31,514 nucleotides of DNA from a virus: IMG/VR virus record IMGVR_UViG_3300043823_000427, positions 1 to 31,514 of that record, one strand, 5' to 3'. The notes under the pieces were generated by a model, which saw nothing but the letters and a program-made list of their open reading frames with translations, made no database searches and was not told the DNA's origin. Each line of letters begins with the position of its first letter. Position 1 is the first letter of the stretch. Below are positions 99 to 9,924 of the stretch, one piece after another. Made by a program: the position numbers and the translations under genes.

Positions 99-265
99 GA
101 TGATTAGTTGGCTAAGCCAATCTCTTACATCAAGCTTATTTTTGTCAAGACCCGTAACAATATAACTAGCGTGCACCAGAACAACGGACACGGCGTCCAG
201 TTGCGTGAAAGTGAGATGATCGTAGGAGTGCTCTGTAGGCATCGAAGGTAAGCCAACTAATTATC
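99..265 (+). ncRNA. Structured element closed by a 15-bp helix (5' leader or small RNA)
   Basis: The arms at 99-113 (GATGATTAGTTGGCT) and 251-265 (AGCCAACTAATTATC) pair over 15 positions, 14 Watson-Crick and one G-U, enclosing 137 nt with no convincing reading frame. Inside, CGTAAC (153-158) can pair with GTTGCG (200-205), and GGAC (186-189) with GTCC (195-198), giving a branched fold. The Shine-Dalgarno sequence of the next gene (AGAAAGGA, about 269-276) begins just after the closing helix. This placement fits a regulatory 5' leader or a processed small RNA. No known riboswitch, tRNA or intron signature was recognised. The fold was inferred by eye, not computed. Confidence 0.5.
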
Positions 266-1928: not shown

Positions 1929-3770
1929 ATGTTCGATGATGAGTTAGAAAGATATACCCGTGAAGAAAGATCTGAACAAGATCAAGAACGGGCGATACAA
2001 CTTAATGCTCTTTGTCGTGTGTATGAACAAGCCGACAGAGTAATAACTGGTGATCCAGTGCTAGTGCATGTTATGAAAGATGGGCCTGCACCGGCTTGGT
2101 CTGATGGTGCTGCTATCTATATCAATGTCAAAGAAATTAATGACATGGACCTTGAGTCACTCGCTCAAGTTAATGGTCTTAATTTCCATGAGTTAGCCCA
2201 TCATCTATATACCCCACGTCGTGGAACTGTATTCATGAAGTGGGTAGTAGATAATGATCTGATGCGAGCAGCTAATATGCTAGAAGATCAGCGTATTGAA
2301 ACTCTGCTCGTAGGTAGGTATCCATCTGTTGCACCGTTTCTTACTGCAACAGTAGCCCGATGGCTTGCGAGCACACCCGAGGAGGCTATAGGTAACTATA
2401 TGCTGGTGCGTGGCCGTAGATATCTACCACTCGAGATGCGTGAAGCATTCAGGGATCTGTTCGCTCAACCAGAACTTATTCCTGCAATCGCTGACATCGT
2501 AGATCAATATCGTGTCTTAGCATTTCCTCGTGACTATGCTAAGGGCCAGGAACTTATCCAACGGTTCAATGATGAAGTCTTAGCTAACATAGACTTCGAT
2601 GCACCTCATGGTCCTAATGGATGTAGTGAGCGTGAACCTGTAGTTAAGGGTCGTCCTGATCCAGGCAAAGCTCAAGAGCGTGATGCTAAACGTGCTGGTG
2701 GTCAAGGCGTAGCTGAGTCAACCAACACAAACAAACCTAAGCAACAAGCCGCTAATGCTCCTACAACAAAAGAAGAAGCATTAGATATGGCTAATGAAAA
2801 TGCTCGCAATAAAGCTAACAATGATACTGAAGCAGGTCCTAAACCTGTTGCAGGTGAAGGCCATCATGCAAGTTTAGGTGGCATACCTGATAGTGTCAAA
2901 GACATGCTTAACGATGTTATAGATGATGTACTAGCCCGTAAGGATGTACAAGCTGATATCAAAACTAAGCAGAAGGTAATTATAGGTGGCGATGGCAAGC
3001 ATAACGATAGTGTCAGACGTGGTAAGTTTGATACTACTCCTGTGCCTGATAATAGTATGGCTATTTATCGTAAGTTCGCACGTGAGTTAGAACGCTTGCG
3101 TGATGAATGTGAACCTGCTTGGCACAAGGAAGAAGCAAGTGGCAGACTCAATGTCCAGCGTGTTATTCGTGGCTGTGAGATTGATGAAGCCTTTGATCGT
3201 TGGGATGAAGGCACTGATGGTTCTGACATCGAGGCTGTAATCCTAGTTGATCGCTCCGGCTCTATGAGTGGTGGTAATGACCGTGAGGCATCTATCGCTT
3301 GCTGGACTATCAAGCGTGCAGTTGAACAAGTAGGCGGTTTAGTTACTGTCTATGCCTTTGATGATGAAGCTGAAGTAGCCTATCGTCGTGAGGATAAAGC
3401 TGACCGTACTAAATATAAGTTCATCTATGGCAATGGTGGTACTGATCCATATAACACATTGCTAGCTGCTGAGCAGTTATTAATGTCCTCTCGAAAGAAA
3501 AATAAGATGCTATTCATTGTTACTGACGGTGTCTTTGATGATAGTAGAAACAACCCTATTATCAACCGTATTTCTAAGCGTGGAATATTAACTGCTATGA
3601 CGTTAATCATGTCCGATCGTGATATGGAGTATTACAAGAGTCGTCATGATTTCGATGAAGAAGAATTTAGACATGGTGCTGAAATTTTTGGCCGTGTTAA
3701 AAATGCTTCAGATTTATTACCGTTTGCCAAATCCGTGGTGACCGGTGCAATTAGAAAGAGAGGAAGATAA
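1929..3770 (+). CDS. VWA-domain protein with HExxH motif, CobT-like partner of the AAA+ ATPase
   Basis: 613 residues in two parts. The N-terminal part has HELAHH (H87, E88, H91), then LEDQRIE (118-124), an arrangement like the putative metallopeptidase domain found upstream of VWA domains. CobT has a related but degenerate stretch. A polar, Ala/Asn/Lys-rich linker follows. The C-terminal VWA domain carries a complete MIDAS site: DRSGS (D441, S443, S445), T505 in GNGGTD and D533 in IVTDGVF. Such proteins bind a metal-dependent ligand and are remodelled by the MoxR ATPase encoded just upstream. Shine-Dalgarno AAGGAGGT precedes the ATG. Whether it is a protease, a chelatase subunit or a chaperone cannot be decided here. 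Confidence 0.85.
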   Translation: MFDDELERYTREERSEQDQERAIQLNALCRVYEQADRVITGDPVLVHVMKDGPAPAWSDGAAIYINVKEINDMDLESLAQVNGLNFHELAHHLYTPRRGTVFMKWVVDNDLMRAANMLEDQRIETLLVGRYPSVAPFLTATVARWLASTPEEAIGNYMLVRGRRYLPLEMREAFRDLFAQPELIPAIADIVDQYRVLAFPRDYAKGQELIQRFNDEVLANIDFDAPHGPNGCSEREPVVKGRPDPGKAQERDAKRAGGQGVAESTNTNKPKQQAANAPTTKEEALDMANENARNKANNDTEAGPKPVAGEGHHASLGGIPDSVKDMLNDVIDDVLARKDVQADIKTKQKVIIGGDGKHNDSVRRGKFDTTPVPDNSMAIYRKFARELERLRDECEPAWHKEEASGRLNVQRVIRGCEIDEAFDRWDEGTDGSDIEAVILVDRSGSMSGGNDREASIACWTIKRAVEQVGGLVTVYAFDDEAEVAYRREDKADRTKYKFIYGNGGTDPYNTLLAAEQLLMSSRKKNKMLFIVTDGVFDDSRNNPIINRISKRGILTAMTLIMSDRDMEYYKSRHDFDEEEFRHGAEIFGRVKNASDLLPFAKSVVTGAIRKRGR

Positions 3771-3961: not shown

Positions 3962-4119
3962 ACCTAAATCAAATACGTAAGGAAGACCCTGCTCGCTGGC
4001 TTAGTGAAATGTTAAGACAGGAAGAGATTGATCGTCTCAACACAAACAAAACAATCGTACGCAAACTACTTATACAACATGGAGCTGAGGATCTCATACC
4101 TATGTTATTGGAGGACTAA
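3958..4119 (+). CDS. 53-residue helical hypothetical protein
   Basis: A short gene missed by a 60-residue cutoff. Translation gives MNLNQIRKEDPARWLSEMLR and so on to HGAEDLIPMLLED, a highly charged, helix-forming protein. The ATG overlaps the previous stop as ATGA and its own TAA overlaps the next ATG as TAATG, so the frame fills the gap between its neighbours exactly. That is the main evidence that it is real. No family is recognised; the charged helical pattern would suit a small adaptor or dimer, but this is only a description. Confidence 0.7.
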   Translation: MNLNQIRKEDPARWLSEMLRQEEIDRLNTNKTIVRKLLIQHGAEDLIPMLLED

Positions 4120-4577
4120 TGGTTAATACATTCTTACCTTGGCCTGATATGACTCGTACAGCAAAATCCCTAGACAATAAGAGACTTGGAAAACAACGTG
4201 TAGAAGCGTTGCAAATCCTGAGGGCTAACTTAGGTCTAACTAAAGGATGGGTTAATCACCCTGCAGCTGTGATGTGGCGTGGACACGAAGGATATCTATA
4301 TGCCTACACTAATGCTATGTGCATAGAGTGGAGAAATCGTGGATATGTGGACAATGTACAAGCACAGCTACAAGAGCTATACGAACAACATGATATACAG
4401 GGTTGGGATCCTCCCTGGTGGTGGAGCAATGATGAGTTCCATAAGTCTCATCGCTCTAACCTAAAGCGTAAAGATCCGGTTTGGTACCGGTTTCGTGTAC
4501 GCAAGGATCTACCGTATAAATGGCCTATGCCGGATAGGTCATTCAGAGTAATAATCAAAAAGGAGAAAAAGAAATGA
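4119..4577 (+). CDS. Pyrimidine-dimer DNA glycosylase-like protein (MSMEG_6728 family)
   Basis: 152 residues beginning MVNTFLPWPDM, with LDNKRLGKQRVEALQIL (about 18-34), WVNHPAAVMWRGHEGYL and, near the C-terminus, FHKSHRSNLKRKDPVWY. These are hallmarks of the actinobacterial MSMEG_6728 proteins, related to T4 endonuclease V (Pyr_excise). Members of that family cut UV-induced pyrimidine dimers by base excision with an associated lyase step. The full family length is present. The start shares a base with the preceding stop (TAATG) and the end overlaps the next start (ATGA). A photolesion repair enzyme would suit a phage of sunlit surface water. The activity is inferred from family membership. 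Confidence 0.82.
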   Translation: MVNTFLPWPDMTRTAKSLDNKRLGKQRVEALQILRANLGLTKGWVNHPAAVMWRGHEGYLYAYTNAMCIEWRNRGYVDNVQAQLQELYEQHDIQGWDPPWWWSNDEFHKSHRSNLKRKDPVWYRFRVRKDLPYKWPMPDRSFRVIIKKEKKK

Positions 4578-6409: not shown

Positions 6410-8419
6410 TTATTGGTTATCTTTGACTAGTTTTACTTCACAAGCGTCTGTTGTGCAATAAGCTTCACCAATTGCATCAAACGCCATACCTGCATATACC
6501 CCACTCAAATCGATAGGAAAATGAGTCATATGGGCATTTTCATATTCTTCTGCATTACTTTGTGTGTAAGGCATCTGAGGATAAAGCGTATCATCCATAG
6601 CTAAAAATGATACGGTCTTTAGTTGACCATCATACATATGCAGTACAGTACCAATTGCATCTGCTTCAGTCTTTGGATCAAACGATACAGTTACAGATAC
6701 AGAGTTATCTGACCAATAACGTTGAGCAGTGGCAGCTAGAGAGATCTTTTCATAGATAGAAACTTCCTTCTCAGAACGCATAGCTTGACTCTTAATTGGG
6801 AAGTAGACTACTGAAGTACCTTCAGGATCTGAAGCTGCAGGTTCTACACGATACTGAGCCATTCTGAATAATGGGAGCATAGGATCATTATTAGAAAAGC
6901 GAATTGTACGCATGAAGTACTTTCCTCCTGGTGCCCAGTGAACTCCAGGTGATTCACCCGCAAGAATAGAAACTGTGCCAGATGGCTTAACAGTTGTCAT
7001 CTTGATAGATTCACGGATACCCAACCACTCAGAGTAGCTCTTATCATAGGCAGCTACAGTCGCATAGCCTTCATCCATCCAAGAACGAAGTAGCGGCAAT
7101 CCACGATTGTCTGCAAAGTTAGAAATACCAGAGATTGAAGTACCGATGCGGCGATTACGCTGCATGATTGCATTTGTCTCTTCCCAGTGAGTTGGGATTA
7201 AGGTAACAGTCTTGGCATAAAGATAAGCAAACTTTAAAGTACGCTTGAAATCCTCTAATGTATCGTGACGATTGATATAGGTTTCTACCAATGTACAGCA
7301 CTCCATTGATTCCAATGATTGTTCAGCACATGGGTTATATCCAGCTGCACGCCAGTCTTTGTTATTGATTGGATCAGCTAAGCGGCCATACTTACGAGTT
7401 ACATCCATCCAGACAACTCCAGGCTCACCATTTCGGGCAATACCTTCAATGATTGATGAGAGGTCTTGACCTACTGTAGCTTCTACTGAGTTATTAGACA
7501 TCCAACCCCATTCCATACGGTCTGGGTTCTTCTCATAGTTCTTAAGATTAATAAACTCTTCATCATCAATGCGACCAATAAGAAGTTCAGCTGAACGGCG
7601 AACATTTCCTGATACTACACATACACCAATTAGGTTGCCGATGTCAGCGATGTCCCTACGGGTTAACTTCTCTCCGGCTCGTCCTGTAAAGATCTTTCGG
7701 ATCTGGTTGTGGAGCTTTTCAAGTGGTTCATGTCCTGCTGCTTTTCCACCAAAGGTTTTAATCGGAGTACCGGCCGGTCTAATTTGTGTGTAGTCAAAGA
7801 CAGGGCACTTCGTATCTGGCTTAAGGTAGGCATTGATGAGGGCGCCGAGTGATTCAACCCAGCCTTCTCGGGTGTCGGGGATGACATAGGTGTCTCCTTC
7901 TGTACAATCATAGATTACAAAGTCTTTATCTGCCCCTTTGTCATCAAAGCCAACTCCTACACCCAACATGGATGCCTCCATAAGGAAGGTAAACGGCTTA
8001 GCCGGATCAACCTTAGTCATAGAGTTTGTAGATACAAAGGAACAGTTCTGCAAAGCTGCAGAATTCTTCTGGGCATTAACAAGTGGAGTTCCCATCATCC
8101 ATAGGCCTCGGCCTGGGGGAGTCCACTTAAGTTCAAATAAACGATCGAAAGCTTCTTTAGCTGAAGCCTGAGCTTTGGCATCCGACCATGGAAGCCTTTG
8201 GCTTTTAGCATGATCCTTTTGAAGAGAATACATGCCGTTGATTACACGCTCACATGTATCAACCCAAGTCTCCTTGGTTCCATCCTCCCTAAGACGAGAA
8301 TAAGTTCGTAGGAAGGTAATCTCACCTACCGAGTTACCGGCGGCATCTTGGTATCCCCAAGGAACCTTTTTTCCTCGGTAAGAAGATACAAAATCATCTG
8401 CAAGTTTGAATGAAAACAC
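6410..8419 (-). CDS. nrdJ: Adenosylcobalamin-dependent ribonucleoside-triphosphate reductase (class II)
   Basis: 669 residues, monomeric class II type. It reduces ribonucleotides to deoxyribonucleotides, with B12 generating the thiyl radical. Visible motifs: LQNCSFVST with the first active-site Cys, GVGVGFDDKGA, NPCAEQSLESMECC with the radical Cys, the nearby Glu and the second redox Cys, TVKPSGTVSILAGESPGV, and a C-terminal CTTDAC (C-x4-C) that re-reduces the active site. It is slightly shorter than the roughly 740-residue Lactobacillus enzyme. The start is a GTG: a TAG lies in frame four codons earlier, and a GGGGA sequence sits very close to the GTG. It would enlarge the dNTP pool in the infected cell without needing oxygen. 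Confidence 0.93.
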   Translation of the reverse strand: MFSFKLADDFVSSYRGKKVPWGYQDAAGNSVGEITFLRTYSRLREDGTKETWVDTCERVINGMYSLQKDHAKSQRLPWSDAKAQASAKEAFDRLFELKWTPPGRGLWMMGTPLVNAQKNSAALQNCSFVSTNSMTKVDPAKPFTFLMEASMLGVGVGFDDKGADKDFVIYDCTEGDTYVIPDTREGWVESLGALINAYLKPDTKCPVFDYTQIRPAGTPIKTFGGKAAGHEPLEKLHNQIRKIFTGRAGEKLTRRDIADIGNLIGVCVVSGNVRRSAELLIGRIDDEEFINLKNYEKNPDRMEWGWMSNNSVEATVGQDLSSIIEGIARNGEPGVVWMDVTRKYGRLADPINNKDWRAAGYNPCAEQSLESMECCTLVETYINRHDTLEDFKRTLKFAYLYAKTVTLIPTHWEETNAIMQRNRRIGTSISGISNFADNRGLPLLRSWMDEGYATVAAYDKSYSEWLGIRESIKMTTVKPSGTVSILAGESPGVHWAPGGKYFMRTIRFSNNDPMLPLFRMAQYRVEPAASDPEGTSVVYFPIKSQAMRSEKEVSIYEKISLAATAQRYWSDNSVSVTVSFDPKTEADAIGTVLHMYDGQLKTVSFLAMDDTLYPQMPYTQSNAEEYENAHMTHFPIDLSGVYAGMAFDAIGEAYCTTDACEVKLVKDNQ

Positions 8420-8460: not shown

Positions 8461-9924
8461 TTAGCTGTTTAGGCCTTTATCAATAATTTTATTCGTATCA
8501 TCGGAATTGATGCCACCGGGGATCTCTTTTAGTACATTAGCTCGGTCTCCAAAGAGAGCCGATAACATACCACCAGAGGATTGGCGCTGAGCTGTGATCT
8601 GAATAAATTCTTTATTTTCTTCCAATTTCTTAACTTCACCTACCAATTTAAATAGGCGATCAATTTCATTTCCAGTATTAGGATCTGGGTATCCACCGTT
8701 CAATTCTTCAGCAAAACGAGCAAAAGCGACCCTTGCGCCCTGCATTTCGATAACTGCGTTCAATAAAGAACGTAGTTGGTCCTTGGTTTTAATCTCAACT
8801 GGGAGACTAAAAGCACAACTATTGTTCGGCTTAAAAGCTGGACAATTGCTTGCAACGAAGCAAGTATTGCATTGGCGAAAGGAAGTCTGTGTGCTATTAA
8901 GAACAGGAACATCTGAAATTACACTGCGTCCATCATCTGCAGTTTCCATAACTGACTTGGTCGTAACCCCAAAAACAGGCAATGTCATGGTCTCATTTGG
9001 GTCTCTGGCGATGAATTCTTTCCGCACCTCAACCCCTCTGTTATCAGGATCTATACCCCGGGTTTCCGCTAAACCTGGATCATCCTTTTCACCACTGTTA
9101 TCAGATAACTTACTGTTCAAAGACTTCTCCAATTGTAGATAGGACCAAATAGCTAGACGAGTTACTTCGTTGCTATCATCATTAATAATCTTATCAAAGT
9201 CTAGTCCGGCTCTCTCAATCATCGCCTTGTAACGAGGACGAGCTTGATCCTTCTGCTTCTTTTGATAGCGGACAAGTCTAGTGCCATCCCAGACAATTGT
9301 CTCACCTCTCATCATTGGGCTTAACCATGATAAGGTACTTGCAGTAGCTAGAGGAACCTGACGTAGGTTATCTGGCTTAGCGCAGGCAATTCCATGAAAC
9401 TCTAGGTCAGGGTACTGACTTAGAAGGGCCCTAGAACGTGCTGACAGGCTCGTATCGTCCTCTAGGGATTCTCCTAGTAGTGCGACGTTAGGAAACTGTG
9501 ATGCTAGGCTGTAGAGGCCTTTGTGGCCCGATTCTGGGTGCCAGATGACAGCGTATCTATCAAGTCCAAACTCCTCACCAAAGGTCTTACGCTGGTAATT
9601 AATCCAGTTCTGTCCTAAGGCTTTGGCATCCAACTCGGTAGCCATTTCGATCCTATCAGAGTTAAGAGCTAAGAAGTCTTGGTAGTCAGCCGCATACTCC
9701 TCGAGCTCCCTCTCTGTCATATTCATATCGTTAAGATTATGACCCCCACCATCTAGATAGATCTTTACATCATCTGGAAAGCGTTCAGCCAGAATATATT
9801 GCTTTGTTTTAGGTAGCCCTCTTTTAACGAGCCTCCAGTAGTTAATACTTATATGTTTAGCCCCGACACTATTCAGGAGAGTTCTATGACTGGGTACTTC
9901 TCCGCCCATGAAGACTATATTCAT
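8461..9924 (-). CDS. TGT/DpdA-like TIM-barrel protein with C-terminal Cys cluster
   Basis: 487 residues. The first 220 show a beta/alpha barrel pattern recalling tRNA-guanine and DNA-guanine transglycosylases: IYLDGGGHNL (D58), RYAVIWHP, FPNVALLGESL, LEFHGIACAKPDNLRQVPLAT and STLSW (196-200), where the usual Asp of SxDSTSW is Ala. A helical, polar linker follows. Then comes C352-x2-C355-x5-C361-x8-C370, a likely zinc or iron-sulfur site, and a helical C-terminus. Its ATG overlaps the HAD-like stop... in transcription order the HAD-like gene precedes it by a 4-base ATGA overlap. Family placement is by eye; a base-exchange activity on DNA or tRNA would be possible but several catalytic positions differ. 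Confidence 0.5.
   Translation of the reverse strand: MNIVFMGGEVPSHRTLLNSVGAKHISINYWRLVKRGLPKTKQYILAERFPDDVKIYLDGGGHNLNDMNMTERELEEYAADYQDFLALNSDRIEMATELDAKALGQNWINYQRKTFGEEFGLDRYAVIWHPESGHKGLYSLASQFPNVALLGESLEDDTSLSARSRALLSQYPDLEFHGIACAKPDNLRQVPLATASTLSWLSPMMRGETIVWDGTRLVRYQKKQKDQARPRYKAMIERAGLDFDKIINDDSNEVTRLAIWSYLQLEKSLNSKLSDNSGEKDDPGLAETRGIDPDNRGVEVRKEFIARDPNETMTLPVFGVTTKSVMETADDGRSVISDVPVLNSTQTSFRQCNTCFVASNCPAFKPNNSCAFSLPVEIKTKDQLRSLLNAVIEMQGARVAFARFAEELNGGYPDPNTGNEIDRLFKLVGEVKKLEENKEFIQITAQRQSSGGMLSALFGDRANVLKEIPGGINSDDTNKIIDKGLNS

Follow-up and report, generated by a model that had tools for sequence, protein, structure and literature searches.

A covarying structured RNA with exchanged interiors precedes a CobS-like AAA+/VWA operon in uncultured bacteriophages

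The sequence analyzed, referred to here as the window, is the complete 31,514-nucleotide stretch at positions 1 to 31,514 of the IMG/VR virus record IMGVR_UViG_3300043823_000427. It opens with the 3' end of a coding sequence (3-89, + strand, ending in ...RFRKGINELLYEDTNNNNSTDVSDSLTE* with its stop codon at 87-89), and 10-13 nt past that stop codon is the start of a structured RNA element (99-265, + strand) detected by covariance models R1 and R2. A Shine-Dalgarno-like AAAGGA that is not sequestered follows (272-277, +), and then three + strand genes: a small ORF of 80 aa (MCHECGNEDEEFS..., 284-526), a CobS/MoxR-like AAA+ ATPase (535-1917; PF07728; phrog_249), and a CobT-like protein with a VWA domain (1929-3770; PF13519 slightly under the cut-off). 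Genes in this order form a conserved three-gene set in uncultured bacteriophages. The preliminary description of this DNA placed the element right before a CobS/CobT-like operon, and this is indeed its position, with ~20 nt separating its 3' end from the ATG at 284 and about 10 nt separating its closing helix, P1, from the Shine-Dalgarno sequence. The small ORF had no Pfam or PHROG match. No reverse transcriptase was found among the ten nearest proteins scanned, the neighbours being the unassigned small ORF, the AAA+ protein, and the VWA protein.

Genes for a pyrimidine-dimer glycosylase (4119-4577), a B12-type ribonucleotide reductase (6410-8419), and a queuine tRNA-ribosyltransferase-like protein (8461-9924), the last possibly involved in 7-deazaguanine DNA modification, were also noted in the window. 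The nearest annotated CobS relatives were from Gordonia and Brevibacterium phages (~45% identity), and one window protein had a sub-threshold match to DUF4192; our guess is that the host is actinobacterial. A CobS profile search of genome contigs for hosts returned weak AAA+ relatives only.

The element is closed by pairing between arms at 99-113 (GATGATTAGTTGGCT, P1 5' strand) and 251-265 (AGCCAACTAATTATC, P1 3' strand), both assigned on the + strand from pairing and covariation. All 15 positions are paired, with one G-U, around an interior of 137 nt, exactly as had been read from the letters. No other helix in the 31.5-kb window reached 15 bp with no more than one G-U and a loop between 20 and 250 nt, and none by this definition occurred in 12 dinucleotide-preserving shuffles of the window. 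The folded region was somewhat more stable than shuffled sequences (z = -2.2, with 4 of 200 shuffles equally stable). The interior also held up as lacking a credible gene: no same-strand ORF exceeds 47 aa, the length of one with a TTG start, and among relatives there are indels of any length.

Relatives were gathered with the CobS-like and VWA proteins as queries against viral contigs. A CobS 64-83% identical to that of the window was encoded by about 20 distinct phage contigs, and nearly all of the contigs toward the upper end of this range contained, at the corresponding position, an element 142-168 nt long, with a 5' end of (G)GUUGGCYAAGC and a 3' end of GGUA-AGCCAACC or a compensated version. 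At the window-type loci tested, relatives of the small ORF (33-63% identical) were always 3' of the element. The upstream gene differed from clade to clade while the association with the operon was constant; in L002 and L015 a similar upstream protein tail ends 10-20 nt ahead of the element. A covariance model (R1) built from 10 relatives with one interior type (type A, below) and excluding the window matched the window element (102-262; E = 4.4e-12), as well as eleven further loci outside its training set at E = 6e-8 or better. The R2 model identified the window element at E = 2.9e-22. Significant model matches numbered one per phage record in the 20 records searched, and a second match in G012 was a 17-nt chance match on the opposite strand. 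The entire viral collection, when scanned by pattern, yielded no convincing copy away from the operon locus; matches at L034, L039, L041, L042, L045, L047, L119, L122, L123, L125, and L126 were rejected as chance, having no operon nearby and no convincing R2 match. Blastn of the element against annotated phages gave short chance matches only. A possible minimal version of ~95 nt was seen ahead of the operon in a diverged relative (L031, near 3460-3560), with a closing helix GAUUAGCUAA...UUAGCUAAUC and AAUCUCC / CGAGGGU.

The preliminary description had named compensatory changes in P1 and in inner helices as the mark of an RNA, and such changes were found. In the type A alignment (10 sequences), a 40-pair structure was 95.7% paired and 18 pairs were altered on both sides, while slid controls were less than 40% paired. 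In an alignment of 22 homologues, P1, P2, and P3/P5 were paired in 95.8% of cells, and 19 of the 23 outer pairs showed two-sided compensatory changes, a level reached by none of 500 shuffles and far above that of all six slides. The 12 modelled pairs of P1 (102-113/251-262) were intact in 259 of 264 cells, and 10 of them were altered on both sides among the 22 homologues, with concerted variants such as GGCU/AGCC, GGCC/GGCC, GGUC/GACC, and AACU/AGUU. The outer helices contained 34 G-U cells versus 4 A-C cells, indicating an RNA of the + strand. The element is thus almost certainly a real structured RNA transcribed from the + strand.

Two inner helices had been proposed from the single sequence, and inner helices proved to be real (P2 and the P3/P5 stem, found comparatively), but they are not exactly those of the single-sequence fold. 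P2 is formed by GCC-A-A-UC (116-122, +, with A119 and A120 unpaired) and GA-A-GGU (244-249, +), pairing 116-118 with 247-249 and 121-122 with 244-245. Its wobble pair, G116-U249 in the window, is G-U in 19 of 22 homologues, with G-C and A-U as alternatives, and its two YY/RR pairs occur in the covarying forms CC/GG, UC/GA, and CU/AG. Because Y1-R2 and Y2-R1 covary, P2 was preferred and the CCCUG/CGGGG hairpin of the single-sequence fold was rejected. Adjoining P2, base 123 (+) is correlated with base 243, U occurring with C in 18 of 22 homologues and G with U in the other 4, and the correlation extends to members with different interiors (Fisher p = 1.4e-4, a value that ignores shared ancestry); this is a probable non-canonical or tertiary contact. 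The 5' strand of P3 corresponds to 127-131 (+), where relatives have ACU and the window has a weak CAU(C), so that its assignment in the window itself is tentative. The alignments also revealed a conserved internal-loop motif, CAAGACCCGUAACAAUAU (146-163, +; CAAGACCCGARUAAUUUAY in type A), and a conserved 3' linker between P3 and P2, CUCUGNNGGCAUC (231-243, +; CCCUGNNNGCAAC in relatives). The apical hairpin of the window (182-203, +; CAAC GGAC-ACGGC-GUCC A GUUG), identified from the sequence, is variable and differs in each interior type.

Beyond P5, there were at least five unrelated-looking versions of the interior, which could be aligned only poorly and were typed by eye: type A (L004-L007, L010-L012, L014, L046, and L065), type B (L013, L020, and L026), type C (L008, L009, L033, L066, and the window, by its CAAUAUNACUAG motif), type D (L015, L030, and L068), and a short form (L002). 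L002 and L004 share 99% identity over 100 bp upstream and 1.3 kb downstream of the element, whereas their interiors are 49% identical, which is the background level of unrelated pairs. When the two were compared over 11.5 kb in 100-column steps, identity fell to 56% and 61% in the pair of steps that include the element, and the next lowest step was at 83%. The element is a sharp break in a 16-kb stretch that is otherwise 97-98% identical, and the breakpoints of the exchange lie within the P1 arms. Further divergent islands were present over about 40 kb, indicating several exchanged segments, the RNA among them.

Phages with a CobS about 53-65% identical to that of the window have an RNA of 185-205 nt at the same position. 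This RNA has a P1 and a 4-bp P2 (GCAC/GUGC and AUAC/GUAU in the aligned set; by eye, ACAU/AUGU in L082 and GUAG/CUAC in L073), and the same P3 with a U-C mismatch (AUACUUGAU...UUCCAGUCCC). In seven of these distant RNAs, covariation within the set itself was seen at 9 of 17 pairs, with 90.8% of cells paired. The R2 model did not detect this architecture, so homology to the window element, which is probable, is argued from synteny, the shared P3 motif, and this separate covariation. In the distant set and in L067, L088, and L096, a hairpin of 14-17 bp (-23 to -32 kcal/mol) separates P1 from the Shine-Dalgarno sequence. The hairpin is clear of P1, and it is followed by a U tract in L073, L088, and L096. 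In several distant relatives the hairpin has no U tract, so termination may fail there. In the window's clade the hairpin's place is taken by a structureless linker of ~20 nt with no terminator. A search of nine distant loci for a partner within the RNA for the 5' arm of the hairpin found none consistently above shuffles, and only in L098 was the complementarity such that fewer than 5% of shuffles (10 of 200) matched it. An antiterminator switch is therefore not indicated, and no expression platform, that is, a pairing exclusive with the terminator or the Shine-Dalgarno sequence, was found.

Other conserved structures were observed near these loci. A second stem-loop with an internal loop lies between the upstream stop codon and P1 in L005, L006, L007, L009-L012, and L027 (for example, CUAACG-ACU-AGAGGCGGGAGUUC-UUUU-GAACGAAAACCUC-AUUC-CGUUAG) and is absent in the window. 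Compensatory changes seem to maintain its pairing, and the upstream stem-loop had no Rfam match in L005 and L013. In the gap between the small ORF and cobS, L005, L006, L073-L086, and L094 have a UUCCCUAACAAAUCGUUAGGGAA-type hairpin followed by a conserved ACGAUUCC/ACGAUACC and the cobS start codon; this hairpin is probably another leader element. In the same gap of the most distant relatives (L089, L090, L091, and L097), just 5' of cobS, there is a sequence like a tRNA acceptor/T-arm minihelix (e.g. GCGUG...CAAGGUUCAAGUCCUUG..CACGC) without a full tRNA, which could be a processing or mimicry element. In Gordonia phage Hanem (L103:877-2041; OP867024.1 55162-56326), about 1.17 kb devoid of annotated genes precedes small genes and a related AAA+/VWA pair. 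This region is 85-100% conserved in eleven Gordonia phage records, some of which annotate small ORFs there, it had no Rfam match, and it could hold a large ncRNA.

The impression that the element belongs to no known class was upheld by an Rfam 15 search, in which no family matched it at the gathering threshold, the only hits being two tRNAs elsewhere in relatives. At E ≤ 10 the best match (E = 0.079) was to a miRNA, on the wrong strand and far under its cut-off. A tRNA or tmRNA was discarded as an identity, as ARAGORN found none in the window. No description of such an element was found in the open-access literature. In retrons, the msr-msd ncRNA is closed by the a1/a2 helix. The element resembles a retron ncRNA in being a non-coding element whose two ends form a sealing helix of 12-15 bp, but in this comparison, made by context only, it has no reverse transcriptase among its identified neighbour genes and no long msd hairpin. 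GOLLD and ROOL are phage-linked. Along with OLE, they are ornate large non-coding bacterial RNAs with elaborate folds and unclear function (PMC12286853); they are hundreds of nucleotides long, whereas the element is ~160 nt with a single rod-like fold and a variable interior, and it has no sequence or Rfam match to them. The manA and wcaG motifs (Weinberg et al. 2010, PMC2864571) are likewise structured RNAs that were identified by comparative genomics upstream of genes in aquatic bacteriophages, in what may be 5' UTRs. The element differs from them in lacking an Rfam match, in its genes, and in its cassette-swapped interior, and no cyanophage relatives of it were found. Riboswitch leaders of the crcB and pfl type share with it a complex, P1-closed fold upstream of an operon; in crcB and pfl the terminators overlap the motif (PMC2864571), whereas in relatives of the element the terminator-like hairpin, where present, is past P1 and has no consistent antiterminator. 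Extrachromosomal mycobacteriophages have non-coding origin RNAs that are found beside parABS and are transcribed in reverse (PMC7157519); they offer a case of a non-coding RNA locus in actinobacteriophages, but the element is neither beside parABS nor reversed. Structured RNAs upstream of phage operons are a known kind; the constant frame with interchangeable interiors is the unusual feature.

The element combines conserved, covarying secondary structure with a non-coding sequence, as does a stand-alone ncRNA, and it is predicted, with confidence that is only just on the favourable side, to be a phage ncRNA that is discrete and modular and sits at the head of the operon, rather than to be a classical riboswitch. 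Three observations favour this reading: the interior is swapped, the 3' hairpin of relatives does not overlap the RNA's closing helix, and no expression platform was found. A discrete ncRNA of ~150-170 nt would accumulate, instead of the element serving solely as a leader that senses a ligand. In the window's clade, processing at the P1 helix would release it from the operon transcript, and in the more distant relatives the stem-loop past P1 would end it. A protein, possibly a product of the operon or of the host, would dock on the conserved P1/P2/P3 end as the constant part, and the exchanged interior would be the variable part that bears specificity. However, the window's clade has no terminator and its RNA is right before the ribosome-binding site, as a leader would be, and the missing U tracts of several distant hairpins also weigh against a discrete transcript. 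The constant tie to one operon despite a differing upstream gene suits a cis-acting element as well. Such a leader (a riboswitch, a protein-binding autoregulatory element, or an mRNA-stabilizing 5' structure), in which P1 about 10 nt before the Shine-Dalgarno sequence sets the translation or mRNA stability of the small ORF, CobS, and VWA genes, is a serious possibility without being a probable one. It fits the invariable position directly 5' of the same operon, the complex fold with its conserved purine-rich internal loop, and the unstructured linker and exposed Shine-Dalgarno sequence of the window clade, but no alternative pairing to the Shine-Dalgarno sequence or to a terminator was found. 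Loop motifs are conserved across homologues, yet the interior, where an aptamer would be expected, is replaced wholesale between alleles of near-identical phages, unlike in ligand-binding riboswitches.

The remaining explanations are less likely. A self-cleaving or other catalytic RNA that cuts the polycistronic transcript just 5' of the operon would suit the compact fold, the invariant unpaired motifs AUACU, CCCUGNNNGCAAC, and AAGACCCGA, and the correlated change from U/C to G/U beside P2, but it is improbable given that no Rfam ribozyme matched even at E = 10 and that the helices are the most conserved parts while the interior varies freely. Where the preliminary description had allowed for a riboswitch-like leader, a cleaved small RNA, or a DNA-level site, the comparative data strongly support an RNA, make a classical riboswitch less likely than a discrete ncRNA, and do not support the DNA site. 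That last reading takes the P1 arms for the terminal inverted repeats of a small mobile or recombination element, with an incidental RNA fold; in its favour, the arms do repeat each other in inverted orientation and the breakpoints of interior exchange fall within them. The arms nevertheless change in concert between lineages (e.g. GGTTGGCT/AGCCAACC versus GGCTAACT/AGTTAGTC) and there is no fixed site sequence, for which reasons the reading is unsupported. In addition, the arm changes include G-U-compatible ones and almost no A-C, P2 and P3 covary too, and no empty site was found among operon-carrying relatives, all of which makes a DNA site very improbable. A functionless chance inverted repeat, for which nothing speaks except the weak z-score of the single-sequence fold, is refuted by the covariation, as well as by the match to a model built without the window and the uniqueness of the helix relative to shuffles, and its likelihood is negligible.

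A more speculative and rather unlikely extension of the discrete ncRNA is that the locus is a phage 'RNA serotype', in which unrelated folded interiors are recombined within the fixed P1/P2/P3 frame under diversifying selection and the interior provides specificity, for example toward a defence of the host, a phage competitor, or a protein partner, the AAA+/VWA complex being one candidate. If so, the locus would parallel, at the level of RNA, the swapping of tail-fibre or immunity cassettes.

These data add a well-supported family of structured RNAs that Rfam lacks, carried by uncultured aquatic phages of a widespread group. The whole exchange of an RNA interior within a conserved closing frame, between flanks that are ~99% identical, is unusual for a regulatory RNA and constitutes a natural experiment on what the RNA recognizes. 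The element may also help to explain the presence, in many phages, of a module of CobS/MoxR-like AAA+ proteins with VWA partners.
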